DNA of 64,000 nucleotides. Origin: Thermoplasmata archaeon. GTDB taxonomy: Archaea > Thermoplasmatota > Thermoplasmata > RBG-16-68-12. The translations under genes were made by a program, and so were the position numbers. Numbering within the stretch: the stretch's first letter is position 1; every line of letters starts with the position of its first letter. Below, in pieces: positions 13,478-26,912 of this stretch. The notes under the pieces were generated by a model. The model was given only the letters and a program-made list of their open reading frames with translations, ran no database searches and had not been told where the DNA came from. The stretch is from NCBI GenBank assembly GCA_036395115.1, contig DASWDU010000005.1, positions 1 through 64,000 on the forward strand. Direction: 5' to 3'.

Positions 13478-13585
13478 CCAGGAGTACCTCTCAGCCGAGC
13501 CTAAGGTGGACGTCGAACCGGCCCCTTCGAGGCGATACCTGTCGGGAAGAAGCGCCGGGGGGGAAAAACTAAACAAGGGCGATAC

Positions 13586-14500
13586 TTGTCCTTTCTCGAG
13601 AGGATTGCAGTGCGGCTGCACTTCCAAGCGAAGCCATGGGACCTGTACCTCTCCTTTGCCTATACGACCGTCATCTCGGTTGCCCTCCTCTCCATCGGCA
13701 TCGGCAATTACGTCGCGATATTCACCGTCATCTTTTTTCCCGGCTACGTCCTACTCTCGGCTCTCTTTCCAACGAGGAATGAGATTGATTGGATTGAGAG
13801 AATTGCCTTGTCCTTCGGTTTGAGCATCGCCGTCACTCCCTTGCTGACCCTCGTCCTAAACTTCACGCCCTGGGGCATCAACCTTGTCTCGGTGGTCGGC
13901 GCGATTGACCTGTTCATGGTTCTCGCAGGAATCCCTGCCTATCGGCGGAGGATGCGCCTTCCAGCAAGCGATCGCCTCTCAATGACCTTTGATGTAACGT
14001 GGCCCTCCTGGGGGGACTACACAACTAGTGACAAAATTCTAACGGCGTGCCTTACGATGAGCATTGGCATTGCAGGCGCCACGCTCGCCTACGTACTCAC
14101 GTCCCCGGAGCTCCGCGAACGCTTCACGGAGTTCTATCTCCTCGGCCCCGGTGGAAATGCCTCCGGCTACCCGACGGCCCTCAACATCTCCCAGCGTGGT
14201 TCCGTCATCCTCGGGATCGTAAACCACGAGGCCATGAGCGTGAGCTACACAGTCCGTATCGATCTCGTCGGTGTGAGGGTCTCCTTTAACGCCACGTCGG
14301 GCTCCAACGAGACCGTCGAGGTCAACCGCACGACCTGGTCCACGTTCAACGTCACCTTGGCCGACGGCCGGAACTGGACTCAACCCTACACGTTCCAAAT
14401 CAACGACACGGGCCTGTGGAAGGTCCAGTTCCTCCTCTTCAAGGACGGCGATGTCTCGAGCGCGTATCGGAAGCTCCACCTGTACGTCACTGTGACGTGA
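13586..14500 (+). CDS. DUF1616 family membrane protein
   Basis: The 304-residue product begins at TTG and has four hydrophobic segments (about residues 25-45, 48-66, 88-110 and 150-170). A C-terminal domain of about 130 residues follows that should face outside. That domain holds eight N-x-S/T sequons (NAS, NIS, NAT, NET, NRT, NVT, NWT, NDT), a dense set for N-glycosylation. DUF1616 proteins are archaeal and often lie beside glycan genes, but their role is unknown. Four relics of DUF1616 3' ends lie downstream between 20.7 and 26.9 kb. The toxin-antitoxin island starts 6 nt after this stop codon. Confidence 0.8.
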   Translation: MSFLERIAVRLHFQAKPWDLYLSFAYTTVISVALLSIGIGNYVAIFTVIFFPGYVLLSALFPTRNEIDWIERIALSFGLSIAVTPLLTLVLNFTPWGINLVSVVGAIDLFMVLAGIPAYRRRMRLPASDRLSMTFDVTWPSWGDYTTSDKILTACLTMSIGIAGATLAYVLTSPELRERFTEFYLLGPGGNASGYPTALNISQRGSVILGIVNHEAMSVSYTVRIDLVGVRVSFNATSGSNETVEVNRTTWSTFNVTLADGRNWTQPYTFQINDTGLWKVQFLLFKDGDVSSAYRKLHLYVTVT

Positions 14501-14506
14501 CGCCCT

Positions 14507-14860
14507 TCAGATCCCCATCGCCTCCCGGTCCTCCCTCGTCAGCGCGACCTTCCGCGCGTGGACGTCGGCTCGGAGATCCTCGAGCAGCGCCGCGACCCTC
14601 GCGGCGTCCTCCGTCCGCACGATCACCACGCCCCGGATCAGCCGCACGTGGGGCACCTCGTCCAGGAGGCCCTTCCTCCGGTACACGTACTTCCCGCCGT
14701 GGCTCGACGTCCGCTGCCCGTACAGGCGCTTCGCGAGCTCGCTCGCCCGGTCCCGGTCGTACCGCGCCAGCCGGAAAGCAATCAGGACCCACGACGCCAC
14801 CGAAGGCGTTGGCGAAGGAACCCGGACGAACGGCGCCTCTCCTCTCCGCCAGCCGGACAC
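14507..14860 (-). CDS. Conserved-looking hypothetical protein in AbiE operon
   Basis: This 117-residue basic protein has a compact core: ASWVLIAFRLARYDRD, then a Gly/Arg/Tyr-rich YGQRTSSHGGKYVYRRKG, then VRLIRGVVIVR. It looks like a folded domain, not a shadow. It lies 34 nt after the AbiEii gene on the same strand, so it may be a third gene of that operon. The start is uncertain, and an internal GTG at about 14806 would remove a proline-rich leader. I do not recognise the family. It converges on the DUF1616 gene with a 6-nt gap. Confidence 0.55.
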   Translation of the reverse strand: MSGWRRGEAPFVRVPSPTPSVASWVLIAFRLARYDRDRASELAKRLYGQRTSSHGGKYVYRRKGLLDEVPHVRLIRGVVIVRTEDAARVAALLEDLRADVHARKVALTREDREAMGI

Positions 14861-14894
14861 GGCCCATCGGCCCTTCGCCCACGGGCTGCTCGGT

Positions 14895-15668
14895 TCAATC
14901 CCCCTTCGCCCGGAGGGTCGGGCCGAGTCCGCGCGATACCGCGACCCGGGCTTCCTGAAGCCAGGCGGAGAGCGGCGGCAGCGGCTCCCGGGTCAGGCGC
15001 AGGAGCCCGGCACGGAGGAAGGGCGCCAGGGTGGCCTCCAGATCCTCGGGGAACAGCTGGTCCAGAGATCGCACGCGGACTCCTTTGAACCGGCACTTCG
15101 ACGGGAAGAGGCGGCGGACGACGCCCCAGTCGAGCCGCCGGGCCTTCGAAAGCCTCCAGACGTCGTAGTAGTCGCGGACGCGGCGACGCTCCGCCATCGC
15201 GCGCAGCTTCTCGGAGACCATGTTCTCGAGGGAGTAGACGCGCACCTTCGCGCGGGGGTAGTCGAACTCGGAGGCGGGCAAGCGCCTCGAACGCAGGGGC
15301 CCGACGGGATCCTCGCGCGAGGCTTCGATCTTGACCGTGCCCGCCCCGATGGGCCCGTCGAACCGGACGCGGGCCTGGAGGTCGTCCTCCCCGGCCACGT
15401 GCGGCGCGTCTCGCAGGGCGACGCGCAGCCCGGGGGCGGCCTCCCGCACGAGGGACGCCAGATCGGCCGCGAGGACGGCGGCGACGTCCCGGGGTGCCGC
15501 GGACTCGAGGAGGGTGAAGTCCAAGTCCTCCGACAGCCGCCATGCCCCGGGGAAGTAGACCTTCGAGAGGGCCGTCCCGCCCTTCAACGCGAGGCCGGGC
15601 CCGGCCCGGGAACGGCCGATCCCCACGAGGAGCCACCCGAGGACGTAGTCCTTCTCGATGACGTCCAC
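14895..15668 (-). CDS. AbiEii/AbiGii-type nucleotidyltransferase toxin (copy 1)
   Basis: The 257-residue protein has the AbiEii core: IEKDYVLGWLL, then KGGTALSKVYF near residue 29 and SEDLDF near 46, the nucleotidyltransferase GG...DxD elements. AbiEii toxins transfer nucleotides to tRNA acceptor ends, and AbiEi represses the operon. The listed GTG start leaves out about 16 residues (ELRSLARTRRFP region) that match the N-terminus of the second copy at 24.8 kb. The upstream frame has only CTG near the GGAGGG motif at about 15726. So the start is non-canonical or the 5' end is damaged. Confidence 0.8.
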   Translation of the reverse strand: MDVIEKDYVLGWLLVGIGRSRAGPGLALKGGTALSKVYFPGAWRLSEDLDFTLLESAAPRDVAAVLAADLASLVREAAPGLRVALRDAPHVAGEDDLQARVRFDGPIGAGTVKIEASREDPVGPLRSRRLPASEFDYPRAKVRVYSLENMVSEKLRAMAERRRVRDYYDVWRLSKARRLDWGVVRRLFPSKCRFKGVRVRSLDQLFPEDLEATLAPFLRAGLLRLTREPLPPLSAWLQEARVAVSRGLGPTLRAKGD

Positions 15669-15720
15669 GGGGAACCGCCGGGTGCGGGCGAGGGACCGGA
15701 GCTCTCCGGGACGCAGCGCG

Positions 15721-16533
15721 TCATCCCTCCATCAGCTCGCGCGGCACGTTGATGCGGAGCTTCCACCGTTCCGTGGTCGGCCCCCTCGCGGGCAGCGCGG
15801 GATCCAGCCTCGGGTAGCCCTCGCGGAGGGGCACCTTCCGCAGGCGCGCGGCCTCCGCGGTGTGGCCGGAGGCCTCAAGGAGGTACCCGAGCCGTTTGAG
15901 GACCGCGGAGTTCCGGATCCGGCGGGCGTAGCGCAGGACCGTGGGGGAGTCCAAGGAGGCCCACGCCTCCTGGAGGGCCGCCGCGACGAGGGGAATGCCC
16001 CCGGCGTGCTCCGGATGGTCGAGGCAGTCCACGACCGTCTTCTCCGGATCCGAGAAGGAGACCTCCTCGCCCTCGATCCGCGCGCTCGTGGTACCGAACA
16101 TTTTCCAGGGGCGCAGGGTGACGAAGACGATGGGCACGTCGAGCACCGTGCGCCGGCTCCGAGGCACGGTCGTCGCGACGAAGACGGCGGGTGGGGTGGC
16201 CTCCGTCATGCCATGGTAGTTGAGCGCGCTCCAGAACCCGATGTAGGAGGGGGACACGAGATGGGAGGCCAGGACGAGGCCATGGACGGTGTACGCCCGC
16301 GCGCCCTCGGGCCCGGCGTCGAGGGGCGCAATCAAATACAGGTTGCGCTTGACCCAAACCACCCAGCCCTTCTTCTCCAGCCGGTGCAGGAACCGCCTCG
16401 GGTCCACGCCGTAGGCATGGAGGTCGGCAGGCGTGAAGAAGGTCTTCCCTCGGAACGCCAGGTCCGCGAGGACCCGACTCTCGAGGCCTGACAGGCCCTT
16501 TCTATACTTGTTTCCCGTAAGGTGCCTGGACAT
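15721..16533 (-). CDS. AbiEi-type antitoxin and transcriptional regulator (copy 1)
   Basis: The 270-residue protein has an N-terminal winged helix (residues 15-70), ending at the YLIAPLDAGPEG segment. The AbiEi C-terminal domain follows with SYIGFWSALNYHGMTEA, FVTLRPWKMFG and SDPEKTVVDCLDHP. AbiEi represses its own operon and blocks the AbiEii toxin. ATG 16533 lies about 37 nt after a TATA box (minus strand). AbiEii follows after its stop. A diverged second copy is at 24811-25614. Confidence 0.85.
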   Translation of the reverse strand: MSRHLTGNKYRKGLSGLESRVLADLAFRGKTFFTPADLHAYGVDPRRFLHRLEKKGWVVWVKRNLYLIAPLDAGPEGARAYTVHGLVLASHLVSPSYIGFWSALNYHGMTEATPPAVFVATTVPRSRRTVLDVPIVFVTLRPWKMFGTTSARIEGEEVSFSDPEKTVVDCLDHPEHAGGIPLVAAALQEAWASLDSPTVLRYARRIRNSAVLKRLGYLLEASGHTAEAARLRKVPLREGYPRLDPALPARGPTTERWKLRINVPRELMEG

Positions 16534-16565
16534 GGTACGTTACGGAAAACGGATATCAGCCAACG

Positions 16566-16574
16566 CTATTATAG
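16566..16574 (-). promoter_or_regulatory. TATA box of the first AbiE operon
   Basis: CTATTATAG is centred 37 nt upstream of the AbiEi ATG at 16533. It is nearly symmetric and could also drive + strand transcription of the relic that follows. Confidence 0.5.
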
Positions 16575-16614
16575 ATTGCTGTGGGCGCCGCGACGATGGA
16601 GCGTCCCCCACGAC

Positions 16615-17022
16615 ATGTACTGCCCGGGCACCCCTTCCCTCGGACGCCTCCGCGACGACCTCGGGACCATCCTCGTCGTCTCGTGCGACGCGTGCCGCTC
16701 GATCCGGATCGATTCGGCGGACGGCCGCGGCTCGACGTGGAAGATCACCTACATCGATCCGGCGATACTCTAGGGCGAGACGGGCCTGCCGCCGGCCGGA
16801 GGCGCCTCCGCCAACGTCACGATGAAGATCCACGGGGTGCTTCAGGGTCCGGGCGGTTCCACGTCGCTGGACGGCACGCCGTACCTGCTCATCGGCATCG
16901 TGGGCACCGGCGCTGGCGCGGCCCTCGGCGTCGCATGGGTTCCTTCGGCGCAGGCGTCACCGACCGCCCGCTTCGCCGCCAGGCCCCCCGCCCTCCGACT
17001 GAGTTCGCCCCCGCGGACCTGA
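16615..17022 (+). pseudogene. Relic of secreted or membrane-anchored protein, in-frame TAG
   Basis: One frame runs from ATG 16615 to 17022, broken only by TAG at 16771-16773 (IDPAIL then stop then GETGLPPAGG). After the stop it reads into an Asn-containing segment (ASANVTMKIHG) and then a hydrophobic stretch (YLLIGIVGTGAGAALG) like a C-terminal membrane anchor. This looks like the 3' end of a surface-protein gene with a nonsense mutation. No good promoter or ribosome-binding site was seen beyond the shared TATA at 16566. A pyrrolysine reading of TAG is possible in some Thermoplasmata but is not supported here. Confidence 0.4.
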
Positions 17023-17111
17023 GGGTCGGTGGGATTCCACGCTCCGACCTCTCTCCAGTGTGGAAAGGTCCATATACCATGTCAGCAGTCTATTCTCTAG
17101 GGAACGGACGA

Positions 17112-17339
17112 ATGCTTAGCAAGACGAAGATTTCAAAGGGATTCCAGACCGTCATCCCGTCCGCGGTGCGCGACCGCTTCGACGTCGAGCCGGGAGACTA
17201 CGCGGAGTGGGAGGAGGGCCCCCAAGGCCTCGTGGTCCGCTTCCGGAAACGCAAGCGGCTTCGCGACCTCGCGGCGATCGGCACGGCCCTGGCCGACGCG
17301 GTCGAGGTCAAGAAACGCGTCCAGCGCGGGTTGCGATGA
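17112..17339 (+). CDS. vapB: AbrB-like (SpoVT-AbrB) antitoxin VapB
   Basis: This 75-residue swapped-hairpin protein starts MLSKTKISKGFQTVIPSAVR, the typical SpoVT-AbrB DNA-binding core. A basic C-terminus (VEVKKRVQRG) should bind the toxin. ATG 17112 is preferred over ATG 17079, because a TATA-like CATATACC at 17071-17078 lies about 38 nt upstream. The stop overlaps the PIN toxin start (ATGA). The last 30 nt of this gene recur as a relic at 33262. Confidence 0.85.
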   Translation: MLSKTKISKGFQTVIPSAVRDRFDVEPGDYAEWEEGPQGLVVRFRKRKRLRDLAAIGTALADAVEVKKRVQRGLR

Positions 17340-17725
17340 TCTTCGTAGACTCCTCCTACTTCATCGCGGTCGCAAACCGCGAAGACCGATGGCATGGAGA
17401 CGCAAAACGCCTCACGCGTCGGCTCGAGCGCGAAGACCTTCTCACGTCGGAGCTCGTGTTGTCGGAGGCGGTGACGGGTGTGGGCTCTGTCCTTGGAGGG
17501 AAGGCGGGCAAGGAGGCCTACGACGTCATCGTTGACAACTGCGCCATCGAACTTGCCACCCCCGAACGGTGCGCCCGGGCGATCACCGTGTTCCGCCACT
17601 ACGACGGGTCGCTCTCCTTCGCGGATGCGGTCTCGGTTGTCCTGATGCAGGAGCGGGGCGCGCAGACGATCGCCTCTTTCGATAGCGACTTCGACAAGGT
17701 TCGCGGCATCGAGCGTCTCGCATAG
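17336..17725 (+). CDS. vapC: PIN-domain toxin VapC
   Basis: The 129-residue PIN nuclease has the acidic residues D5 (MIFVDSS), E44, D97 (SFADAVSV) and D116 (SFDSDFD). VapC toxins cut tRNA or rRNA when freed from VapB. It overlaps VapB by ATGA, a coupled pair. Its 3' end is duplicated as a relic at 30207-30285 and its 5' end at 33306-33344, so this locus was a source or sibling of fragments in the island. Confidence 0.9.
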   Translation: MIFVDSSYFIAVANREDRWHGDAKRLTRRLEREDLLTSELVLSEAVTGVGSVLGGKAGKEAYDVIVDNCAIELATPERCARAITVFRHYDGSLSFADAVSVVLMQERGAQTIASFDSDFDKVRGIERLA

Positions 17726-17845
17726 CGGATGGGGATTCGGGTCGCGGGATTGTATCGGGACCGACTCGCTTCGGCCCGCCGCTGGCTTCATCCATCCGGT
17801 GGAAATCTATACAGCATGTACACAGCGTATGCCTAGAGGCGCGGG

Positions 17846-18349
17846 ATGGCTACGAAGACGATTGCCCTGGACCGCGAGGCCTACGAGCTTCTCCGGAAAC
17901 GCAAACGGAAAGGAGAGAGCTTCAGCGATGCCGTCAAGCGAATCGCCCGCGAGCCCCGACGCTTGTCGGACTTGCAGGTGCCTAGCGAAAGCACCTCTCC
18001 GGGAGCGAGATCCGGGAAAACGAGGGTGTCGAAGTCGGTTGCGATGAGCCCTCCGTTTCGTCGGTTTCTCGATCGGCTCGCCCGGGACCTTCGACCCGAG
18101 CGGGTCGTCCTGTACGGGAGCCGGGCTCGAGGGACCCATCGTCCGACCAGTGACTACGATATGCTCATCGTTGCGAGGCGGTTTCAGGGCGTCCCTTGGG
18201 TAGAACGCGCGGCCCTCGCGATTCGCCTTTGGGACCTTCCCGTGGACCTCGAGCCAATCTGCCTCACCCCGGAGGAGTTCCGCCGGCGGTCCAAGGAGAT
18301 CTCGATTGTTGGCGTGGCAGCGCGAGAGGGGATCGTAGTTTTCCCCTGA
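17846..18349 (+). CDS. RHH-type VapB remnant fused in frame to MNT-type nucleotidyltransferase
   Basis: Residues 1-43 are nearly the same as the VapB-like antitoxin at 18501 (TIALDREAYELLRKRKRKGESFSDAV). Residues 67-167 form an MNT nucleotidyltransferase domain with GSRARG at 91-96 and SDYD (D103, D105). DNA alignment with 18501 shows one T missing after the GACTT of codon 43, so the rest of the old vapB (ending GCC TAG in the old frame) is now read out of frame as the linker. An independent start at ATG 18044 would give the MNT domain alone. So this is either a chance fusion or a decayed vapB followed by an MNT gene. No HEPN partner follows. Confidence 0.65.
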   Translation: MATKTIALDREAYELLRKRKRKGESFSDAVKRIAREPRRLSDLQVPSESTSPGARSGKTRVSKSVAMSPPFRRFLDRLARDLRPERVVLYGSRARGTHRPTSDYDMLIVARRFQGVPWVERAALAIRLWDLPVDLEPICLTPEEFRRRSKEISIVGVAAREGIVVFP

Positions 18350-18500
18350 CGGGTCCGAGTTCGAGTCAAGAAAGGGAATCCCATCTCCCGGCGAGGAGGG
18401 AGCCGGGAGGACGTCCGCTTCCTCGGCGCATTCGCCCCGTTCACCGACCCGGCCGAAATCTGTATGTATCATCTACACGGCTCATGCGGACAGGCGCGAC

Positions 18501-18749
18501 ATGGAAACGAAGAAGATCGCCCTGGACCGGGAGGCATACGAGCTTCTCCGGAGACGCAAACGGAAGGGAGAGAGCTTGAGCGATGCCGTCAAGCGAATCG
18601 CCCGCGAGCCCCGACCCCTGTCGGACTTTGCGGGAGCCTGGCGGAAACATCTCTCCGAGCGCGACATCCGGGAAATCGAGGAGGCGATCGCGCGGGGCCG
18701 CGCCGCGGATCGGGAACGGATGCGCAAGAGAATACGGCGGCTGGGATGA
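18501..18749 (+). CDS. VapB-like antitoxin, toxin partner lost
   Basis: This 82-residue protein has an RHH-like N-terminus (KIALDREAYELLRRRK) followed by a charged toxin-binding helix (SERDIREIEEAIARGRAADRER), the DUF217/VapB pattern. The upstream 50 nt resemble those of the 17846 gene (AAATCT.TA, then CTACACGG), so the two are a tandem duplicate. Its stop overlaps ATG 18746, but only a gutted vapC follows. Confidence 0.75.
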   Translation: METKKIALDREAYELLRRRKRKGESLSDAVKRIAREPRPLSDFAGAWRKHLSERDIREIEEAIARGRAADRERMRKRIRRLG

Positions 18750-18808
18750 CCGGCGCGCTGGGACACGGACTTCGCGCGGATCCCCGGCTCGCGATCGAAG
18801 GCTACTGA
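18746..18808 (+). pseudogene. vapC remnant (start and last codons only)
   Basis: An ATG overlaps the vapB stop as in intact pairs. The next 60 nt encode pieces of a PIN C-terminus in two frames: DTDFARIPG in one and LAIEGY-stop in the other. Such WDTDFARIPG...EGY ends are common in VapC proteins. An internal deletion and a frameshift seem to have removed the toxin. Confidence 0.5.
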
Positions 18809-18989
18809 CTGCGGCCGGGGACAGGGACACGCAACGAAAAGTAAGCGTCGCCAGGATCCCAATCTTCGACGCGTCGACCGCGTGGCGGCACACGTGACAG
18901 CCCCTCTTGCTCGAGGCAACATCGGTTTGCAGGGTTCCAGGCGACGAGGAACAAACAAAAATAGCAGCCGACAGCTGCAGGTAGGGGCG

Positions 18990-19781
18990 ATGGAGGGGGC
19001 GAGTAACTCATCGAATCGCGCGGCGACGGCTCGCCTGTGGACGAGCGTGAGGATCGCGGCCCTCAGGCCGTGGCCCTGGTTCGTCGCGGCGGGGATCGCC
19101 GCGCTCGCCGTCTACGTCGCCAGCGTGCTCTCGACGGCTACATTCGGATGCATCGGATGCCCTGCCGAGGTCCCGCCGAATCCTTACAATAGCGCGTTCG
19201 TCGTCTTCCTGATCCCGGCCGCGACGTTCCCGTCCCTCGCCGTGCTGGTCTTCTGGCCGGTTCTCAAGCGCCTGACCGGCCGAGGCGCGGAGGACCTCTC
19301 CGTGGAGAGTCGACTCGTGACGCACCTGGGTTCCGTCCTCGTGTTCACGATCGCCGCGGCGATCACATGGCTTGCGTACTTCATCTATGCGGGCCTCCTC
19401 ACCGGGTCATTTTTGGCCGCGGTCTACGTGCTACCCCTCGTGCTCCTCACGATCCCGCTTGGCCTCATGTTCCAATTCCTCCTGGAGATGGCGAGCAGCG
19501 TCCTCAAGGGACAACGGCCTGCAGGGGCGGTCATCGTTGCGTACGCGCTCCTCGTCTCGCCGCCGCTCCTCGCCCGCTCGGGGGTATTCTCGCTCTTAGG
19601 ACCCGTCGGATTCCTGATATCCGGCCCTCCCTTCGCCTACTATCTTGCGACCGCGGCGTATGGCGGGAACTACGGCTACGTCGGCGGCGCCGGGCTGGCC
19701 CAAGCGATTTTCTTCGGATGGTTCGCAGTGATCTCGGCTTGGTGGGTGGCGTGGGCTCGACAGAAGCCGAAAGCCCGCTGA
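18990..19781 (+). CDS. Polytopic membrane protein, unknown function
   Basis: The product of about 263 residues has six or so hydrophobic helices and a short loop with GCIGC after the first helix. ATG 18990 is chosen because an AT-rich box A-like stretch (AAAAATAG, 18957-18964) lies about 30 nt upstream. The frame is open further back without features. I do not recognise the family. It stands alone between antitoxin genes and could be cargo of the island. Confidence 0.6.
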   Translation: MEGASNSSNRAATARLWTSVRIAALRPWPWFVAAGIAALAVYVASVLSTATFGCIGCPAEVPPNPYNSAFVVFLIPAATFPSLAVLVFWPVLKRLTGRGAEDLSVESRLVTHLGSVLVFTIAAAITWLAYFIYAGLLTGSFLAAVYVLPLVLLTIPLGLMFQFLLEMASSVLKGQRPAGAVIVAYALLVSPPLLARSGVFSLLGPVGFLISGPPFAYYLATAAYGGNYGYVGGAGLAQAIFFGWFAVISAWWVAWARQKPKAR

Positions 19782-19792
19782 GGCCCGCCGGG

Positions 19793-19895
19793 TCAGCCCG
19801 CTCCCGCAGTCCGGCGTGCGGACCGACGCGCCTTCCGGAGGGATCGGGACCGCCCCGCGAGGACGGCGAAGAACACCCAGGATTCCTGTGAGGGT
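19793..19895 (-). pseudogene. 3' relic of the small membrane-protein gene at 31871
   Basis: On the minus strand this reads VFFAVLAGRSRSLRKARRSAR and ends at TGA 19793. It matches the C-terminus of the 31871-32170 product (VFFAFLAGRALSVRKARR). The rest of the gene is missing. It is one of many gene-end relics in the island. Confidence 0.65.
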
Positions 19896-19908
19896 TTCCT
19901 CCCCGCGT

Positions 19909-19917
19909 CTATAAATA
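19909..19917 (+). promoter_or_regulatory. TATA box of RelBE-like pair (leaderless)
   Basis: CTATAAATAG is centred about 25 nt before ATG 19938, so transcription should start at the start codon. An AT-rich symmetric stretch lies between box and start and could be an operator. Confidence 0.6.
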
Positions 19918-19937
19918 GTTATGACTCATTATAACGA

Positions 19938-20126
19938 ATGATGAGCCTCACGACGATCCCGGTTTCCAAGGAAACCCGCGACCAGCTGAAGCGGCTCGCC
20001 TCCAAGGGAGAGACGTACGACGATCTGCTGCGCCGCCTCATCGAGGATGCGGGGGCCCGCCTCCTGTACGAGCGGGAGAAGCGCATCCTCGAGACCGAGG
20101 AGTTCGTCCCCCTTGACGAAGCGTAG
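19938..20126 (+). CDS. Small antitoxin of RelE-type pair
   Basis: This 62-residue protein has TIPVSKETRDQLKRLASKGETYDDLLRRL, an RHH-like DNA-binding start with the GETYDDLL segment found in many archaeal antitoxins. An acidic tail (ETEEFVPLDEA) should cap the toxin. ATG 19938 is followed at once by a second ATG. It overlaps the toxin gene by 14 nt. Confidence 0.8.
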   Translation: MMSLTTIPVSKETRDQLKRLASKGETYDDLLRRLIEDAGARLLYEREKRILETEEFVPLDEA

Positions 20127-20394
20127 GGTCCTCCTCTCCAAGACCGCCACGCGCCAGCTCGAGCGATTGCCCCGGGATGCCAATCGGCGAATCCGGGAAC
20201 GGCTCAAGGCCCTCGAGGACGACCCGGTTCGTCCCCGGCCCGGCGCGGACATCCGCCCCCTCTGGGCCCACGACGATCCTCCGCTATACCGGCTTCGAGT
20301 CGGCGACTACCGCGTGTTGTACTTCGTCCTACCGGAAGACGTCCGTGTCACGGAAATCGTCCATCGCTCGCAGGGATACCGCGGACTGGACTGA
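20113..20394 (+). CDS. RelE/ParE-family toxin
   Basis: The 93-residue basic protein starts at TTG 20113 and reads TKRRVLLSKTATRQLERLP. A central HDDPPLYRLRVGDYRVLYFV strand pair and IVHRSQGYRG at the end follow, the RelE fold pattern. RelE toxins cut mRNA on the ribosome. Its last 25 codons recur as a relic at 28016-28090. Confidence 0.8.
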   Translation: MTKRRVLLSKTATRQLERLPRDANRRIRERLKALEDDPVRPRPGADIRPLWAHDDPPLYRLRVGDYRVLYFVLPEDVRVTEIVHRSQGYRGLD

Positions 20395-20413
20395 GGCCCG
20401 AGGCCCTCGGACC

Positions 20414-20503
20414 GGTCGTGAAGAGGTCCGAATCCCGGGCCTTGAGCTCAAGCAACAGGCGGGTCTCATGGGGACCCAGACGAACTCTTTTTGTGACGGT
20501 CAT
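20414..20503 (-). pseudogene. Truncated abiEi (first 30 codons)
   Basis: From ATG 20503 the minus strand encodes MTVTKRVRLGPHETRLLLEL and ends near DLFTT. This matches the N-terminus of the intact AbiEi at 25614. The frame then continues into unrelated sequence. It is a 5' relic, so the break lies at the abiEi codon 30 side. Confidence 0.7.
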
Positions 20504-20690
20504 GACGTCTGACGTAATACTGTTACAAGATCGATAGATCTTCTCCCAGGAGCTGTGAATGGGGCGCTCGGGTCCTCGAGTCAACGCCACCGCGTGCCGC
20601 AATCCCCTCGATGCGCGAGGGCACGTCATCTCCACACCCTCTCGTTGGGCCCGGGAGCACTCGATCGGCGCGGAGGACACCGTCGACGGG

Positions 20691-20834
20691 CGGCTCGTCT
20701 ACAACGCCACATAGGGATTCAACGAGACCGTCGAGGTCGACCGCACGACCGGGTCCACGATCAGCGTCACCCGAGCCGACGGCCGGAACGGGACCCAGCC
20801 GTACACGTTCCGGATCAACGACACGGGCCTCTGG
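20691..20834 (+). pseudogene. DUF1616 3'-region relic 1
   Basis: Reads YNAT-stop-GFNETVEVDRTT, then SVTRADGRNGTQPYTFRINDTGLW, homologous to residues about 231-282 of the intact DUF1616 protein. A TAG and several changes show decay. It breaks off just before the TATA box of the next MNT/HEPN pair. GFNETVEV differs from the intact gene (GSNETVEV), so it derives from a paralog. Confidence 0.7.
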
Positions 20835-20867
20835 CCCCCGGAAGGGTTATATGTTCGGCAACCCATA

Positions 20868-20893
20868 CATATGTCCAGTCTATTGGACATATG
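20868..20893 (+). promoter_or_regulatory. Perfect 10-bp inverted repeat operator over start codon
   Basis: CATATGTCCA, a 6-nt spacer (GTCTAT), then TGGACATATG, with the right arm ending on the ATG of the MNT gene. A TATA box (TTATAT, 20847-20852) lies just upstream. The site is well placed for autorepression by the winged helix fused to the MNT protein. Confidence 0.6.
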
Positions 20894-21517
20894 ACCGGAC
20901 CTCCAGACACCCCCTTCGCCACGTTGCTTGCGGGCATCCTGAGCACCCGCGCGAGGCTCCGGGTCGCGATGCTCCTCGTGCGCCTGCCCGAGAAGGAGTT
21001 CACGGGGAGAGAGACCGCGAGGCTCCTTGGGCTGAGCCCCTCCACGGCCCTCGAGTCGCTGAGGATCCTCGTCTCCAGTGGACTCGCCCGCCAGCGGGCG
21101 ATCGGACGCGCCTACGTGTTCCAGGTGAATCGCGACTCCTACCTCTTCGCGATTCTGGACAACCTCCTCCGGTCCGAGGACCGCATCCGCGAGGAGATCC
21201 TCGAGATGGCTCGCTCCACACTGGGAGAAGGAGTCGTCTCCATCGTCCTCTTCGGGAGCTACGCCCGGGGGACGCCGGGGCCCTCCAGCGACCTGGACCT
21301 CCTCGTCGTCACAGAGGACCCGAAGAAGATCGGGGAGCGATTGGACAAGCTGGAGGCGCTGTTCCTTCGTCGCTACGGGCTGCACGTGGACGCCAAGGTC
21401 CTCACCCCCCGGGAACTGAGGGCACGGGCGTCCCTCCCGTACATCCGGATGGCGCGCTCGGAAGGCATCGTGGTGGGTGGCAAACCCCTGGAGCAGGTGA
21501 TCGGCCGTGGCTCGTAA
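20891..21517 (+). CDS. Winged-helix-MNT nucleotidyltransferase antitoxin (pair 1)
   Basis: The 208-residue protein has an N-terminal winged helix (about residues 12-85, EFTGRETARLLGLSPSTAL) and a C-terminal MNT domain with FGSYARG (GS at 122-123) and SDLD (D134, D136). MNT antitoxins of the MntA type modify and silence HEPN toxins with AMP groups. The fused DNA-binding domain suggests autoregulation through the inverted repeat at 20868. The HEPN gene overlaps its end by 11 nt. Confidence 0.85.
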   Translation: MTGPPDTPFATLLAGILSTRARLRVAMLLVRLPEKEFTGRETARLLGLSPSTALESLRILVSSGLARQRAIGRAYVFQVNRDSYLFAILDNLLRSEDRIREEILEMARSTLGEGVVSIVLFGSYARGTPGPSSDLDLLVVTEDPKKIGERLDKLEALFLRRYGLHVDAKVLTPRELRARASLPYIRMARSEGIVVGGKPLEQVIGRGS

Positions 21518-21917
21518 GACCCGTCCTGTCTCGAAGGCGAAGTATCTCAACTACCTCCGGAAGTCGGACGAGTTCCACCGATCGGCGAAGCAGGCCTTGG
21601 ACCGAGGGGATTGGAACGCGGCCGTGTCCCATGCCATCCACTCTGCCCTCTGCGCTTCCGACGCCGTCACCGTCTTCTATTCAGGGACTCGGTCGGCCGC
21701 GGAAGCACACGCCGAGATGCTCCGGCTGCTCGCGGGGCTCAAGCTCGACCGCAGGGAGCTCGATCGGAACCTCGCACATCTGCGGGCGCTCCTGCAGTTG
21801 AAGACGACCTCGGAATACGAGGACCGCCTACTCGGCGAGCGGGATGCGGCCGCAAGCGTGCAACATGCGGACCGCTTTCGCGAGTGGGCGCTGGCGAAGC
21901 TCGCGGCGAGTGGCTAG
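21507..21917 (+). CDS. HEPN-domain toxin (pair 1)
   Basis: The 136-residue helical protein has the HEPN RNase motif R-x5-H (RSAAEAH, R62-H68) after AIHSALCASDAVTVFYSG. HEPN toxins cut RNA. The start is GTG, overlapping the MNT gene. Unlike HepT with its R-x4-H-x-Y motif, no tyrosine stands two places after the histidine. Similar proteins are encoded at 23521 and 26913. Confidence 0.8.
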   Translation: MARKTRPVSKAKYLNYLRKSDEFHRSAKQALDRGDWNAAVSHAIHSALCASDAVTVFYSGTRSAAEAHAEMLRLLAGLKLDRRELDRNLAHLRALLQLKTTSEYEDRLLGERDAAASVQHADRFREWALAKLAASG

Positions 21918-21981
21918 GGATAGGCCAGCCGCGCGTGCTCCACCCCCCGGGCCCCGTTTGATCCGTCCTCCTGGCGTGGTG

Positions 21982-22141
21982 AACAGACGGTCCGCATCGA
22001 CCTCGTCGACGTACGGATCGTCCACAACGCGACGTCGGGATTCAACGAGACCGTCGAGGTCAACCGCACGACTTGGTCCCACTCGTAACGTCGGCCTCGC
22101 CGAAGACTCGATCTGGACCCAGCCCTACACGCTCCGCATCG
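21982..22141 (+). pseudogene. DUF1616 3'-region relic 2
   Basis: Reads VRIDLVDVRIVHNATSGFNETVEV then NRTTW, then breaks at TAA and a frameshift, and resumes in another frame with TWTQPYTLRI. It is homologous to about residues 222-275 of the intact DUF1616 protein. It lies between a HEPN gene and the end of the PemK-like gene. Confidence 0.7.
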
Positions 22142-22143
22142 GC

Positions 22144-22500
22144 CTACCCTCGTTGGGAACCCCTCCGGGCTTTCCCCGACCGCAAGGCGGATACGAGCAG
22201 ACGGACCGTTTCGTCCCGCGTCCTCTCGGAAACTCGGCCCACGACGGAGTGGATCAGGGCGCGATGGATCGTGAACAGCTTCAGCGGCCGAATCTCGCTC
22301 GGCTTCGGGAGGCGCCCCTCGACCATCCCGCGGTCCTCGAGCCGGACCGTGTCGGCGCCCCGGGAGAGCTTCGACGTGACCCCGCAGAGAACCACGTCCT
22401 CGCGATGCACGACCAGCACGAGGGCCGGGCGGCGCTTCACCGCGGACAGGTCCGTGAAGGGGAACGAGACCGTGACCAACGACCCCGCGAGGAGCCGCAT
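22144..22500 (-). CDS. MazF/PemK-like toxin
   Basis: The 118-residue protein begins LLAGSLVTVSFPFTDLSAVKRRPALVLV, the PemK/MazF signature start, followed by the VLCGVTSK strand and KLFTIHRALIHSVVG. MazF toxins are sequence-specific mRNA endonucleases. The ATG at 22500 has GGCGGAAGG just upstream and lies 12 nt after the antitoxin stop. Confidence 0.8.
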   Translation of the reverse strand: MRLLAGSLVTVSFPFTDLSAVKRRPALVLVVHREDVVLCGVTSKLSRGADTVRLEDRGMVEGRLPKPSEIRPLKLFTIHRALIHSVVGRVSERTRDETVRLLVSALRSGKARRGSQRG

Positions 22501-22512
22501 GGGCCTTCCGCC

Positions 22513-22758
22513 TCACGCGTCGTTCCAGACATCGTCCTCGGGGTTGTCCCACAGATCCTTCAGGGCCCGTTCCGAGGCACGGAGGAGCGGAACGAACTCG
22601 TCCTTCAGGATCCCCTCGACGTCCTTCTTCTTGCGCAGGATGAGCGCCTCTCCGGCCTCGAGGAGCACGAGATCCGCGTCCCGGCCCAAGCGGTGACGCT
22701 CGCGGACCTCCTTCGGGATCACGACCTGGCCTTTGCTGGACATCTTCACGACGTGCAC
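22513..22758 (-). CDS. AbrB-like antitoxin of MazF/PemK pair
   Basis: The 81-residue protein has KMSSKGQVVIPKEVRERHRL, the SpoVT-AbrB core, and an acidic C-terminus (DLWDNPEDDVWND) to hold the toxin. ATG 22758 would be close to leaderless from the TATA-like GGTTTATGAG (22781-22790). ATG 22743 (MSSKG) is an equal alternative. Confidence 0.8.
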   Translation of the reverse strand: MHVVKMSSKGQVVIPKEVRERHRLGRDADLVLLEAGEALILRKKKDVEGILKDEFVPLLRASERALKDLWDNPEDDVWNDA

Positions 22759-22764
22759 GAGCGA

Positions 22765-22780
22765 GTAAGTCCAGTCTTAC
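22765..22780 (-). promoter_or_regulatory. Inverted repeat operator of AbrB/MazF operon
   Basis: GTAAG, six nt (TCCAGT), CTTAC: a perfect 5-bp inverted repeat between the TATA-like element and the antitoxin start, where a bound AbrB dimer would block transcription. Confidence 0.45.
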
Positions 22781-22924
22781 CTCATAAACCTTGCGGGGGG
22801 TGCGAAGGCATGTTCTCGTCGACACGCGGCACCCGGCAGGCATCCGCTGGCGTCGAGGTCCTAGCAGCCATCTTCCTCAAAGCCCTCGGAAGATATATTA
22901 ATCTCTCGACGCATATGCTAACTA

Positions 22925-23524
22925 ATGTTCGCACATCCTCGCACGGGGACGGAGGCGCTGCTCGGTTCGACCCTGAAGATCCGGACCCTTCGCGTCCTCT
23001 CCCGCTACCCGACCCGGGAGTTCACCACGCGGGAGCTCGCCGGGGAGGCCGGTGCGAGCGACGTGGGCGTCGGCAAGGCCCTCGATGACTTGGAGGCCTA
23101 CGACGTCGTGCGGAGGCGGCGCATCGGTCGCGCGTACGCCGTCCGGGCCAACCCGGGCTCCGCCCTCTTCCAGGCGGCGCGGGAGCTCTTCGGGCGGGAG
23201 GAGGAGCGGGGCGCGCGGTTCCGGAGGGCCGTGCAGCGGTGGTGCGCCCGGGAGAACGTCGAGTACGCCGCCCTCTTCGGCAGCGCGGCGCGGGGCGAGA
23301 TGGGACCGGACAGCGACGTGGACCTCCTGGTCGTGTCGCGGACCCCGAAGGCGGTGTTCGACGCTCTGGCCGACCTCGCGGAGGAGACCCGCCGCTTGGT
23401 CGGACGGCCTCTCTCGCCTCTGGTCCTGGACCCGGAGGAGTTCCGCAAGGCGCGGTCCTCGAGCCTGGGCGAGGGCTTGCGTCGGGAGGGGATCCCCTTG
23501 TACGCGAGGAAAGGGAGACGGTGA
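22925..23524 (+). CDS. Winged-helix-MNT nucleotidyltransferase antitoxin (pair 2)
   Basis: The 199-residue protein has a winged helix (EFTTRELAGEAGASDVGVGKAL) and an MNT domain with FGSAARG (GS 119-120) and SDVD (D131, D133). A TATA box (GATATATTAA near 22895) is about 30 nt upstream, so the mRNA is nearly leaderless. A GCATATGC palindrome (22911-22918) lies between. Its TGA overlaps the GTG of the HEPN gene. Confidence 0.85.
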   Translation: MFAHPRTGTEALLGSTLKIRTLRVLSRYPTREFTTRELAGEAGASDVGVGKALDDLEAYDVVRRRRIGRAYAVRANPGSALFQAARELFGREEERGARFRRAVQRWCARENVEYAALFGSAARGEMGPDSDVDLLVVSRTPKAVFDALADLAEETRRLVGRPLSPLVLDPEEFRKARSSSLGEGLRREGIPLYARKGRR

Positions 23525-23925
23525 GGACCCGGTCCGTCGCGAGGGACCGGTTCAAGGTCTTCTTGGATCGGGCCACGGAGTTCATGGACTCTGCACACGG
23601 GAGCCTCTCCCGCCACCATCACCAGGCGGCCGCATCGAATGCTGCGCACGCCGCGATCGCGGCCGTGGATGCCGTCACGGTGTTCCATGCCGGAAAGAGG
23701 AGCGCCCCGCAGAGGCACGAGGATGCCGTGCATCTTCTCCAAACGTTGGGACTGCCTCGCTCGGAGGTCGAGCCGCGAGCGCGCCAGCTCATGCGGATCC
23801 TCGGGCTCAAAACGAAGGCGGAATACACCGATGAGCTCGTCACGGCTCGGGAGGCCGAAGACGCCGTCCGCACGGCCGAGCGCATCGTCGCCTGGGCACG
23901 GACTCAGCTCCCCCGCGTGACCTAG
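23521..23925 (+). CDS. HEPN-domain toxin (pair 2)
   Basis: The 134-residue protein starts at GTG 23521 (GTGA overlap with the MNT gene). It carries AAHAAIAAVDAVTVFHAGKR and the R-x5-H motif RSAPQRH (R60-H66). It is clearly related to the 21507 product (both end in ILGLKTKAEY or LLQLKTTSEY segments). The HxY tyrosine of HepT is absent. Confidence 0.8.
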   Translation: MRTRSVARDRFKVFLDRATEFMDSAHGSLSRHHHQAAASNAAHAAIAAVDAVTVFHAGKRSAPQRHEDAVHLLQTLGLPRSEVEPRARQLMRILGLKTKAEYTDELVTAREAEDAVRTAERIVAWARTQLPRVT

Positions 23926-24026
23926 CCGGGCGGAGGGTGCGCCCCGACGCCCCTCTCGCCCCCACCCGTGGCGCCGTCTCCGGGATCGCCGCCCGCGGGC
24001 CGCCTCCGAGGCTCCGCCGAGGGCCC

Positions 24027-24809
24027 TCAGGCCCGACCCGCACGGACCGTCCGCAAGCGTGCGCGCACTGTGTCCGCCACGGCTTCGAAGGGCGGGACCT
24101 GTCCGAGCAGCGGCTCGAGGTCTCGCCGCCACGTGGCGCCGATGCGATCGATCCGGGGCCTGAGTTCGTCCGGCCGGAAGGCCATCCCGTCCTTCCACCA
24201 GCCTAGCTTCGCCTCGACGACCTCCGAGTCCACGGCGACGCCCTCCCGCAGGAGGAACCACAGGTCGTACAGGTCCCGGGCCTGGCTGCGCATGAAGAGG
24301 GAGCGGATCTTCTCCGCCGCGATCTCACGCAGGTCCATCGTCGGCATCCGCGCGTCCCGCGGGACGACGCGGTACGGATCGTGGATCGGCCGAGGCTCCG
24401 CCGGGAGGAGGATCTTCTCCCGCAGGCTCAACTGCACGAGGACGTGGTTCGGGTGGAGGTTCATGTCCTCGTACCGGATCTTCAAGGTGCGCCCGCTCCT
24501 CCCGCCCGGCACGCGCTCGACCCGCACGAGGCGCACCCCCGCGCGCCGCCCGGCTTCCAAGAGGCGGGGTGCGGCGTCCGAGACATCGTCCGAGACGTCG
24601 CGCGCCGCGGTGAAGTCGAGGTCCTCGGAGAACCGGTAGCCCTCGAAGTACATCTTGGACAGCGCCGTACCGCCCTTGAACGCGAGGTCGCGCGCGCACG
24701 GTTCCCGCGCGAGGACCCCGAGGACGAGGGTGAGGACCTGATCCTTCTCCATGGTCCCGAGCGCGGTGCCCGTCCTCCCTGCGAGACGGCGCAGGTCCGT
24801 CGGGTCCAC
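24027..24809 (-). CDS. AbiEii-type nucleotidyltransferase toxin (copy 2)
   Basis: The 260-residue protein starts at GTG 24809 and has DLRRLAGRTG, MEKDQVL, KGGTALSKMYF near residue 43 and RFSEDLDF near 58, the AbiEii nucleotidyltransferase core. RSQARDLYDLWFLL follows in the C-terminal half. Its start lies 1 nt after the AbiEi stop. Compared with copy 1 the N-terminus is complete. Confidence 0.85.
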   Translation of the reverse strand: MDPTDLRRLAGRTGTALGTMEKDQVLTLVLGVLAREPCARDLAFKGGTALSKMYFEGYRFSEDLDFTAARDVSDDVSDAAPRLLEAGRRAGVRLVRVERVPGGRSGRTLKIRYEDMNLHPNHVLVQLSLREKILLPAEPRPIHDPYRVVPRDARMPTMDLREIAAEKIRSLFMRSQARDLYDLWFLLREGVAVDSEVVEAKLGWWKDGMAFRPDELRPRIDRIGATWRRDLEPLLGQVPPFEAVADTVRARLRTVRAGRA

Positions 24810-24810
24810 G

Positions 24811-25614
24811 CTAGACCCGCCTCCAGGCCAGCAGGTCTTCCCGGGCGACGTTGAGGAGCAGCCCCCACTCCTTCGAGACGCCCAGACTCCGGCGGGGGGC
24901 AGAGGGGTCGAGCCACCGGAAGCCGGTGAAGGCCCTCCGCCGGGGCCGGACGTCCATGCGGAGGACGCTCCGGAGATACCCCAGCCGCCGGGGGACCGCG
25001 TCGACGCCGAGCCGTCCCGCGTACGCCTCCACGCGGTTCCAGCTCACGTCGTGGCGCGCGGACCAGAGGGCTTTCGCCACCTCGGGGATCCCACCGGAGT
25101 AGCGGGGCTCGAGAAGGCCGTCGACGAGGGTCCTCTCCCGGTCCGAGATCCGGAAGGTGCCTTTCCCGAGCGGCTCCTCGGTCGCGCCGAAAATCCTCGC
25201 GGCTCGGAGGGTCACGAACCGCACGCGCTGCCCCTGGAACTCGAAGGGGCGGTGCCTCCGGGAGCTGACCACATGGACCGTCCGCGGGACCTGCTCCGTC
25301 ATGCCCCAGTAATTCATCGCGGACCAGAACCCGACGTAGTAGTCGCGGTCCACGACCGCGTCGATGACCCGGTAGACGCTCGCAGACCAACCGCCCTCGG
25401 GACCCGCCCGGGCGGGGACGAGGAGGTAGCGCCCCTTCCGGACTTCCGCGAGCCGGCCCTTCCGACGCAGGCGGTGGAGAACAGGCGCGACATCGCGCAG
25501 GCCAAGAGCTTTCCGAGCCTCGTCGGTCGTGAAGAAGTCCGACTCCCGGGCCTCGAGCTCCAGCAACAGGCGGGTCTCATGGGGACCGAGTCGAATTCCC
25601 TTTGTGACGGTCAT
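24811..25614 (-). CDS. AbiEi-type antitoxin and regulator (copy 2)
   Basis: From ATG 25614 the 267-residue protein has MTVTKGIRLGPHETRLLLEL, a winged helix ending at KGRYLLVPARAGPEG, and the AbiEi domain with YYVGFWSAMNYWGMTE, FVTLRAARIFG and SDRERTLVDGLL. It should repress its operon at the palindrome at 25621 and neutralise AbiEii. Its 5' end is repeated at 20503 and 30045 as relics. Confidence 0.85.
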   Translation of the reverse strand: MTVTKGIRLGPHETRLLLELEARESDFFTTDEARKALGLRDVAPVLHRLRRKGRLAEVRKGRYLLVPARAGPEGGWSASVYRVIDAVVDRDYYVGFWSAMNYWGMTEQVPRTVHVVSSRRHRPFEFQGQRVRFVTLRAARIFGATEEPLGKGTFRISDRERTLVDGLLEPRYSGGIPEVAKALWSARHDVSWNRVEAYAGRLGVDAVPRRLGYLRSVLRMDVRPRRRAFTGFRWLDPSAPRRSLGVSKEWGLLLNVAREDLLAWRRV

Positions 25615-25935
25615 GGCGTCTAACGTAATAATCGTTACAAAATAGATAAATCTTCTCCCGAGGGCTGTAAATAGGGGCGCTCGGGTCCGTGAGTCAGCGC
25701 CACCGTGTGTCGCGATCCCCTCGATGCGCGAGGGCACTTCATCTCCACACTCTCTTGATGGGCCCGGGAGCACCCGATGGACGCGGAGGACATCGTCGAC
25801 GGGCGGCCCCGTTTACAACGCCACCTCGCGGATACAACGAAACGGCCGAGGTAGCCGCACGACCTGGTCCACATTCAACGTCACCCTGGCCGACGGCCGG
25901 AACGGGACCCAGCCCTACACCTTCCGGATCAACGA
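25525..25935. repeat. Direct repeat copy B (intact abiEi 5' end, operator, spacer, DUF1616 piece)
   Basis: Similar to copy A at 20414-20834 over its whole length and to copy C at 29917-30190 over the abiEi, operator and spacer part. Here the repeat is continuous with a complete abiEi gene, so B is closest to the parent arrangement. Confidence 0.75.
25621..25637 (-). promoter_or_regulatory. AbiE operator palindrome
   Basis: TAACG, seven nt (TAATAAT), CGTTA: inverted repeat just upstream of the AbiEi ATG. The TATA-like ATTTATCTATTTT (minus strand, about 25638-25650) lies directly beyond it. The same palindrome is kept in copy C at 30041-30057. In copy A only part remains. Confidence 0.5.
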
Positions 25936-26027
25936 TGTCGGCCTGCGGAAGGTCCAATTCCTCCTCTTCAAGGACGGCGATCTCTCGAGCGCGTTTCGGG
26001 AGCTCCACCTGTACGTGCGCGTGACGT
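25806..26027 (+). pseudogene. DUF1616 3'-region relic 3 (reaches the old gene end)
   Basis: Reads YNATSR, then TTWSTFNVTLADGRNGTQPY, then INDVGLRKVQFLLFKDGDLSS and LHLYVRVT. This is homologous to the last 75 residues of the intact DUF1616 protein, but the old stop has been lost (GTGACGTTG). A frame break lies near 25850. It is the most complete of the relics. Confidence 0.75.
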
Positions 26028-26123
26028 TGCAGGCAAGCCCTCTAGCCTACATCCCCCGGCGTTCTCGCGGTAGGCGCGGGTATTCGAATCCGCCCAAGTG
26101 GGGCAGCGCCGTGCTCCTGCCGC

Positions 26124-26466
26124 CTACCGATATCCGAACAATCGATCGTAGTCCCTGTGGGACAGGATCTCCAAGATCAGGACCACCGTGCCAACCCCCG
26201 CTGCGGACTGAACCGTGTAGACTCCGCGGTAGGCAAGGGGCAGCTCGAATCGCCATGCGTTGGTCAAAGGAGAAGGGAGGCCGCTCCGCGCTGCGAGTCG
26301 CGCGGGAATTCATCCTTCGAAATCTGGTCTCCGGCAAATGCGTCTTGCTTCAGGCGCAAGACCCACCATTCGAGCTTCTTTCGCTGTTTGGGCCGAAGCT
26401 CCGCCTCCGCGGCTCTTGCGCGAGGTCCGAGCCGGACCTCGCTTGCCGAGAAACGAGCCAGGTCAC
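26124..26466 (-). pseudogene. RelE-like toxin gene broken by frameshift
   Basis: On the minus strand the first part reads RPKQRKKLEWWVLRLKQDAF and GDQISKDEF, then the frame is lost. In the next frame it goes on as LTNAWRFELPLAYRGVYTV and ends ILSHRDYDRLFGYR-stop at 26124. Together they give one RelE/YafQ-like toxin of about 110 residues. Restoring one base in the TTCCCG run near 26297 joins the frames. It follows a winged-helix gene that ends at 26463, like a normal pair. Real decay or a sequence error are both possible. Confidence 0.6.
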
Positions 26467-26741
26467 CGAGCCTCCCACGTCTCCACAACCTTCCAGAACG
26501 CGGGCTCGACGTTGAGCGTCCACATGACGCCTTTCGAGCCTTCGGTGACGCAGCCGAGGCGCTTGTAGTGGTCAATGGCCTCCCGGAGTGTGGCGTGCAT
26601 CATCTTCCGCGGCAGGAGCCCCTTGATTCGGTTGAGGCTCAGCGGTTCGTCGAACTTGCGGAGCACGGACTCAACCATGTGCAAGGTGTCGAGGGTCGGC
26701 CCCTTGTGTTCCAACCTGGGAGGCATGGGCGGCGCTCGCAT
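26463..26741 (-). CDS. Winged-helix antitoxin-like protein
   Basis: From ATG 26741 the 92-residue protein has a winged-helix core (LHMVESVLRKFDEPLSLNRI, then MHATLREAIDHYKRLGCV) and a short wing (GSKGVMWTL). A TATA element GATATACTAC (26764-26773, minus strand) lies about 28 nt upstream, which favours this ATG over the one at 26762. It precedes the broken RelE-like toxin gene. Confidence 0.65.
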   Translation of the reverse strand: MRAPPMPPRLEHKGPTLDTLHMVESVLRKFDEPLSLNRIKGLLPRKMMHATLREAIDHYKRLGCVTEGSKGVMWTLNVEPAFWKVVETWEAR

Positions 26742-26800
26742 CGGCAGTGGGTATGAGTTCATGTAGTATATCAACCTGTACCTGAGGTCCGCGAAGCACA

Positions 26801-26878
26801 GGAAAATCCCGTTCCTCCTCTTCAAGGACGGCGACGTCTCGAGCGCGTACCGGGAGCTCCACTGTGCGTGCGCGTCGC
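26801..26878 (+). pseudogene. DUF1616 3'-region relic 4
   Basis: Reads IPFLLFKDGDVSSAYRELH then a small deletion before CVRV, matching the last 25 codons of the DUF1616 gene. It ends just before the HEPN gene end at 26913. Confidence 0.65.
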
Positions 26879-26912
26879 CGAGCCGGGGAAGGATCGGGGG
26901 AGCGGCTCTACT

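Follow-up and report, generated by a model that had tools for sequence, protein, structure and literature searches.

Background

The spread of toxin-antitoxin (TA) modules between chromosomes without mobility genes is a long-standing question. Integron cassette arrays are rich in TA genes. In E. coli, linear DNA carrying the 3' end of lacZ was recircularised and integrated by a single crossover, generating duplications of the lacZ end of 109-950 bp (PMC3240628). Insertion with long target duplication is known for restriction-modification genes (Nobusato et al. 2000), as outlined in PMC3874152, PMC1643837 and PMC3031569, and the type VI effector-immunity modules of Vibrio cholerae undergo sequential displacement, for which homology-facilitated illegitimate recombination has been proposed (PMC5361080). 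The locus analysed here is an island of TA modules contained in a stretch of 64,000 nucleotides (nt) of Thermoplasmata archaeon (RBG-16-68-12; assembly GCA_036395115.1, contig DASWDU010000005.1, positions 1-64,000 of the forward strand), referred to as the window. The island adjoins an intact DUF1616 gene and contains four decayed copies of the 3' end of this gene, which are probably scars of module insertion by homology arms.

In the following, anchor indicates an ordinary gene whose end brackets a module, relic a decayed partial gene copy, and arm a gene-end copy serving as homology arm. The window's own genome is indicated as G000 and the related genomes as G001 to G018, followed, where necessary, by the contig (C and a number). 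The genomes compared are fragmented assemblies, one per species. Open reading frames (ORFs) outside curated families were called by using a simple codon-score script, and their counts are therefore approximate.

DUF1616 relics and island borders

The island was delimited by comparison with a congener, G011. On contig C67 of this genome the orthologue of a dehydrogenase (18795-19767), 79.5% identical to that of the window, comes 16 nt after a DUF1616 3' end (18501-18789), and 19.5 kb are missing. Since G011 joins the DUF1616 3' end directly to the dehydrogenase, the extra DNA of the window corresponds to about 14507-34009, well past position 26878, where the initial annotation had closed the island. 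The left border had been placed 6 nt after the intact DUF1616 stop, and the stop codon of the neighbouring gene (14507-14800, - strand) is indeed located there. On the right, the stop codon of the dehydrogenase is the point where homology among three genomes ends. No direct repeats of at least 8 nt were reported between the two island junctions. G011 is the only empty DUF1616 allele, and its DUF1616 piece is itself 5'-truncated and decaying. The elements defining the locus are the following:

13586-14500, + strand: intact DUF1616 gene, anchor at the left edge of the island (PF07760, E = 5.4e-73)
14507-34009 (19.5 kb), no strand assigned: TA island, extra DNA relative to G011
20676-20852, + strand: relic r20.7, residues 214-286, one internal TAG, 3' truncated (E = 2.3e-19, 59% at the amino acid level)
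21981-22140, + strand: relic r22.0, residues 220-272, frameshifted, 3' truncated (E = 2.7e-9; 78% to the G003 DUF1616 over 155 nt)
25778-26027, + strand: relic r25.8, residues 218-304, with frameshifts, reaching the old stop (E = 7.3e-29, 69% at the amino acid level)
26785-26875, + strand: relic r26.8, residues 273-299 (E = 9.9e-5, 63% at the amino acid level)
34013-34984, - strand: zinc-type dehydrogenase, right neighbour of the island (PF00107/PF08240)

The intact gene and its four same-strand 3' relics, already recognised in the initial annotation, were thus recovered. All of the relics fall within residues 214-304, in the 3' third of the gene. Their bit scores (113, 76, 53 and 42) are far above the best value obtained from 50 shuffled islands (26.9), so that chance is excluded. 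A search of the whole G000 genome detected no further DUF1616 C-terminal piece and no N-terminal relic; the sixth match, on C30, is weak and N-terminal. Relic-specific changes are evenly spread over the three codon positions (4/6/3, 6/7/8, 4/9/9 and 2/1/2 in the four relics) and, together with the stop codon and the frameshifts, indicate that the relics decayed as non-coding DNA.

Two of the relics share a common origin. The segments 20413-20821 and 25524-25935 are a single duplicated block, 86.7% identical over 413 nt, which includes the 5' end of an AbiEi gene and a DUF1616 relic; r20.7 and r25.8 are therefore not independent copies and, one local duplication being certain, insertions were fewer than relics. 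Upstream, in the AbiEi leader, any continuation of the relics does not exceed the level of shuffled sequences. Two sequence changes had been taken as evidence that relics derive from paralogs. The first, GTQPY, is common, as NGTQPY, only to r20.7 and r25.8, the two relics of the duplicated block. The second, GFNETVEV, is present in the full-length, intact orthologue of G003; it is thus the ancestral state and no sign of paralogs, and the intact gene of the window is the altered one.

Within the intact gene the G+C content at third codon positions (GC3) rises from 0.70 in the first 55% to 0.85 in the last 45% (p = 0.003). Such a break is absent in six orthologues and is suggestive of a mosaic or hybrid gene. 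On a larger scale, positions 4000-14000 of the window have a lower G+C content (53-57%) than the rest (65-70%), with a shift in or near DUF1616; this region holds sugar-nucleotide epimerase-like and membrane genes.

The 3' side of DUF1616 was then compared among related genomes. None of 11 DUF1616 genes has a TA module there, and the gene does not appear to be the special insertion hotspot initially suggested. A similar small convergent gene is located at the 3' side in four genomes of the same order. Tandem copies of DUF1616 were seen in none of the relatives inspected, and a scan of the genome collection for DUF1616 returned two distant loci only.

Imported gene ends at the L40e locus

The ribosomal protein gene L40e is single-copy and syntenic, and events occurring there can therefore be polarised. 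In five of 13 genomes relics of L40e lie beside the gene, for a total of seven elements of 66-143 nt. G001 and G016 represent a filled and an empty site: their flanks are 93% identical on both sides, and G001 additionally carries an insert of 896 nt and a second copy of nt 7-149 of L40e. The intact gene of G001 matches G016 at 100 of its first 103 bases, but at only 36 of its last 52. The far copy, in contrast, agrees with G016 at 46 of its last 50 bases, and native downstream DNA follows it. The intact gene is thus a hybrid, and the insert arrived with a foreign L40e 3' end, displacing the native one.

A mirror case is found at the 5' end of L40e in G002, whose sister G009 has the empty allele. 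Here a SnoaL-like gene lies between the two copies. The promoter of the relic is 81% identical to that of G009, while the promoter of the intact gene is only 48% identical to G009 and 75% identical to G000. The relic keeps the native promoter and that of the intact gene resembles other species, revealing an imported 5' end. Both inserts are about 0.9 kb long and contain one ORF each. A hybrid anchor gene and a displaced native end are therefore observed in both G001 and G002.

Relics in series are also found at this gene. In G000 two L40e 5' relics occur in series upstream of the gene, the outer being more decayed (64.5% vs 86%), in a series that spans a contig joint (C39/C12) deduced from an overlap of 141 identical nt. 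A HEPN gene of G012:C27 is located upstream of L40e, where the L40e 5' end is present in two additional copies. The cargo at L40e is mostly unrelated to TA systems, and hence a general route is at work, with TA modules as one type of cargo among others.

Rhodanese arrays

Convergent modules of the ParDE/RelBE or VapBC type follow a gene for a two-domain rhodanese in nine genomes, and in most cases a 3' relic of this gene lies past the module; no module follows the gene in G007 and G012. An array on G000:C37 contains eight rhodanese 3' ends, all on the + strand, distributed over 33 kb with several VapBC modules among them. Combinations of arm and module recur in different species: the arm-VapBC-arm unit at 39689-40659 has a counterpart in G017, with 91.7% identity over 973 nt, and the arm-VapBC unit at 41563-42405 is found in G008 (86%), in G006 (85%) and in G016 and G001 (77.5%). 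Of G006 and G008, 93-95% identical in this region, one has an additional bracketed module next to the VapBC common to both.

The rhodanese ending, EK or EKP, seems by eye to follow the adjacent module. A rule classifying relics ending in EK as native and intact genes ending in EKP as imported failed in G000 and G017 and was discarded. Between positions 5000 and 43000 of G000:C37, RHS-repeat proteins and truncated copies of them are also interspersed with the VapBC modules and rhodanese 3' ends.

Other bracketed loci

Additional anchors were detected. In G003:C33 an MNT-HEPN module, homologous to positions 26915-27942 of the window, has the 3' end of an N-acetyltransferase gene on one side and a repeat of this end (379 nt, 87%) on the other. 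In G012, G010 and G003, same-orientation copies of a gene coding for 97 amino acids, also present in the window, bracket an MNT-HEPN module, with different outer flanks. Direct repeats around the cargo measure 66-143 nt for L40e, 80-145 nt for rhodanese, 379 nt for the N-acetyltransferase and up to 250 nt for DUF1616. The cargo consists of TA, SnoaL-like, cupin, NAD-binding or unknown genes, and not of restriction-modification systems.

The association was evaluated on stretches sampled from the genomes, in which repeat classes were assigned by hand: gene-end or intergenic direct repeats were found at 9 of 22 TA loci outside the window and in 4 of 44 background stretches (Fisher p = 0.006). 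Repeats around the MNT-HEPN genes of C20 and C48 (two pairs) were considered as module brackets and rejected, as they are better read as paralogous gene arrays.

Three further features of G000 were recorded. On C42 (stretch L107, 8380-8436 and 13601-13657) the 3' end of a PIN gene (57 nt, 96%) is present on both sides of a subtilase gene of 1561 amino acids. On C18 (stretch L143, 11208-13913) a serine-recombinase-like gene is flanked by direct repeats of 329 nt (78%). The ends of contig C15 (1-7786) share 141 identical bases, and this contig is possibly a small circular replicon; alternatively, the shared bases are an assembly overlap like that of C39/C12, which has the same length.

Contents of the island

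The island is filled with AbiE, VapBC, ParE/RelE, MazEF and MNT-HEPN genes and their fragments. It holds both AbiEii genes of its genome, 5 of the 12 NTP_transf_2 matches and 4 of the 17 PIN matches. Besides the DUF1616 relics, the following elements are present:

14507-14800, - strand: ORF of 97 amino acids, no Pfam or NCBIfam match
14895-16533, - strand: AbiEii-AbiEi module 1 (PF08843, PF09407, PF13338); a 79% identical unit is found in G012:C34
17112-17725, + strand: VapBC, AbrB-type antitoxin and PIN toxin; the 3' ends of both genes recur as relics
17846: VapB 5' relic
19806-19876: 3' relic of the gene at 31871
19938-20394, + strand: antitoxin (DUF7557) and ParE/RelE toxin; the 3' end recurs at 28007-28087
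20413-20657, - strand: relic of an AbiEi 5' end and its upstream region, joined to r20.7, within the block duplicated at 25524-25935
20891-21917, + strand: MNT nucleotidyltransferase and HEPN module (PF01909, PF05168)
22144-22758, - strand: MazEF-like module, convergent with r22.0 (PF02452, PF04014)
22925-23925, + strand: MNT-HEPN module
24027-25614, - strand: AbiEii-AbiEi module 2 (PF08843, PF13338, PF09407)
26127-26738, - strand: RelE-like toxin remnant and winged helix-turn-helix-like gene, convergent with r25.8; homologous to G003:C33, 8304-8953
26913-27880, - strand: HEPN-MNT module, convergent with r26.8
28007-28090, + strand: ParE 3'-end relic, residues 89-115 of 115 (85% at the amino acid level)
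29918-30189, - strand: third copy of the AbiEi 5' end, 85% to 25498-25770; it adjoins a VapC 3' relic instead of DUF1616
30206-30294, + strand: VapC 3'-end relic, residues 105-129 of 129 (87.6% at the nucleotide level), convergent with VapBC at 30309-30928 (- strand)
33242-33326, + strand: relic of a VapB 3' end and VapC 5' end, VapB residues 55-75 of 75

The presence of 3' relics of VapC (protein match at 30207-30281), ParE (28007-28087), VapB (33244-33306) and the gene at 31871, and of 5' relics of AbiEi (two) and VapB, indicates that DUF1616 is one of several recurring gene ends. The excess of 3' over 5' relics in the island (8 vs 3) is not significant by a binomial estimate. No recombinase or integrase family match was obtained among the island ORFs scanned. 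Members of the 97-amino acid ORF family are located next to AbiE and MNT-HEPN modules of several species. An 84% identical homologue of the MNT-HEPN module at 20891-21917 is found in G012:C34; the similarity starts at position 20834 of the window, where r20.7 ends.

Other sequences deserve mention. A nucleotidyltransferase at 18025-18387 shares 91% identity with an MNT of G018:C60 that belongs to a complete HEPN-MNT pair; the copy in the window has no HEPN partner, and a VapB start is fused in front of it (ORF 17846-18349). Two tandem genes similar to retroviral-type aspartyl proteases (PF13975), about 61% identical to each other, lie inside the island at 32375-33233. Elsewhere in the window, positions 39428-46897 encode a surface-protein-like protein of 2489 amino acids with many internal repeats (70% identical DNA repeats).

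Discussion

The arrangement of the island, i.e. an intact DUF1616 gene, a convergent module and a same-orientation 3' relic, is that observed at other anchors. A single route probably produced them. A small donor DNA, made up of a TA module and a short copy of the end of the adjoining gene, would close into a circle and, most simply, integrate at the same gene of the recipient by one crossover. The anchor gene would stay whole, with an imported end and the module beside it, and the recipient's own end would be moved to the far side and decay there. Repetition of the process at the same anchor and at the ends of resident modules would generate arrays of modules separated by 3'-end relics; in this island, a later local duplication of the AbiEi-DUF1616 block and subsequent decay would have blurred the order of events. 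Among the processes considered, single-crossover integration of small circularised fragments fits best, the circles and the crossover being inferred intermediates; homology-facilitated illegitimate recombination is close, but is expected to delete. The proposal that modules travel with a gene 3' end as arm, one of two models in the initial annotation, is supported in the genus by the rhodanese and L40e loci; the analogy in anatomy suggests that DUF1616 followed the same route. A more ambitious interpretation is offered tentatively, as possible and somewhat short of an even chance: a recombinase-free cassette system, in which a TA module and a housekeeping gene end would form a standing transfer unit, added serially by homologous recombination, with gene ends such as that of rhodanese as attachment sites and the DUF1616 locus of the window as a decayed array.

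Several observations weigh against insertion by arms at DUF1616. r20.7 and r25.8 are copies of a single junction, and the rightmost relic does not adjoin the dehydrogenase, implying that further events came later. The 97-amino acid gene may be part of the modules, instead of an anchor. A possible hybrid status of the DUF1616 gene is only hinted at by the GC3 break, with no near relative in the comparison. G011 carries a decayed DUF1616 3' end with no module there, which is part of what the initial annotation had stated would refute its own interpretation. A phylogeny of the relics had been proposed to separate the two models, but the sequences are too short, and the approximately unbiased (AU) test rejected no topology. 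At the other anchors, the best direct proof of an imported arm comes from L40e, where the cargo is mostly not of the TA type and the inserts in question carry none, and rhodanese 3' ends do not cluster significantly by module beyond gene relatedness (residual identity, permutation p = 0.19).

The most serious competitor is that the island is a junkyard of TA genes, in which the resident sequences were copied and trimmed by ordinary duplications and deletions at the locus, the DUF1616 ends being debris that guided no insertion. The duplicated block containing r20.7 and r25.8, the recurrence of many other gene pieces, 5' ends included, and the lack of TA modules at the 3' side of the 11 related DUF1616 genes are in its favour; the same bracket anatomy is found, however, with independent anchors, and L40e hybrids with displaced native ends are not obtainable by local duplication. 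This explanation is judged unlikely, at about one chance in four. A tandem DUF1616 array invaded by modules and worn down, the other model of the initial annotation, would account for several same-orientation relics near an intact copy, but is highly improbable, given that only the last third of the gene is represented, four times, with neither N-terminal relics nor arrays in the relatives inspected.

Two other explanations concern the origin of the repeated end. Insertion may produce a literal long target duplication, by copying the recipient's own gene end. Restriction-modification genes (PMC3874152, PMC1643837) show the corresponding pattern, with the cargo between direct repeats at least about 100 nt long, one of which completes the intact gene. 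In G001 and G002, however, the intact gene carries the foreign copy, which hence was brought in; this excludes the process for those two cases, and it is considered very unlikely overall. Alternatively, a site-specific integrase could insert at gene ends, each element making the gene whole again by means of the end that it carries, as elements of the phage type do. An imported end and a displaced native end, as in G001, are the expected leftovers of such an event, but the absence of recombinase matches among the island ORFs scanned, the size of the G001 and G002 inserts, the variety of anchors, the use of both 5' and 3' ends and the failure to notice a common core leave it scarcely credible. 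Insertion by homology arms is thus the preferred explanation for the DUF1616 3' ends.

Pairs of filled and empty alleles make the scars readable as imported gene end, cargo and displaced native end. They suggest a simple route, requiring neither transposase nor integrase, which predicts the landing sites of new modules. The same route would account for the puzzling partial gene copies that TA islands contain, and cautions against taking such copies for arrays of paralogs.

Comparison with known systems

As in integrons, small TA modules are organised in arrays and separated by a recurring sequence. Here, however, what recurs between modules is a protein-coding gene end, no integrase match was obtained among the scanned ORFs, and no attC was seen, though no attC model search was made. 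As in long target duplication, in the form outlined for restriction-modification genes, direct repeats of about 100 bp or more flank the cargo and empty alleles exist in relatives (G016 for G001, G009 for G002); the present cases differ in being archaeal, in carrying TA modules and other single genes instead of restriction-modification genes and, where this can be tested, in that the repeat at the intact gene is imported and not derived from the target. In V. cholerae (PMC5361080), too, a new module enters at a conserved anchor and older parts are shifted downstream, forming leftover arrays, but in that system the anchor precedes the module and effector replacement takes place, whereas here the end of any neighbouring housekeeping gene may serve and the anchor stays whole. 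The lacZ case (PMC3240628) shares the integration of a fragment carrying the 3' end of one gene and the duplicate gene end left behind; that case was obtained with laboratory constructs in E. coli, while the events described here occurred in nature, between species and repeatedly, in a genus of archaea that is known from assembled genomes.

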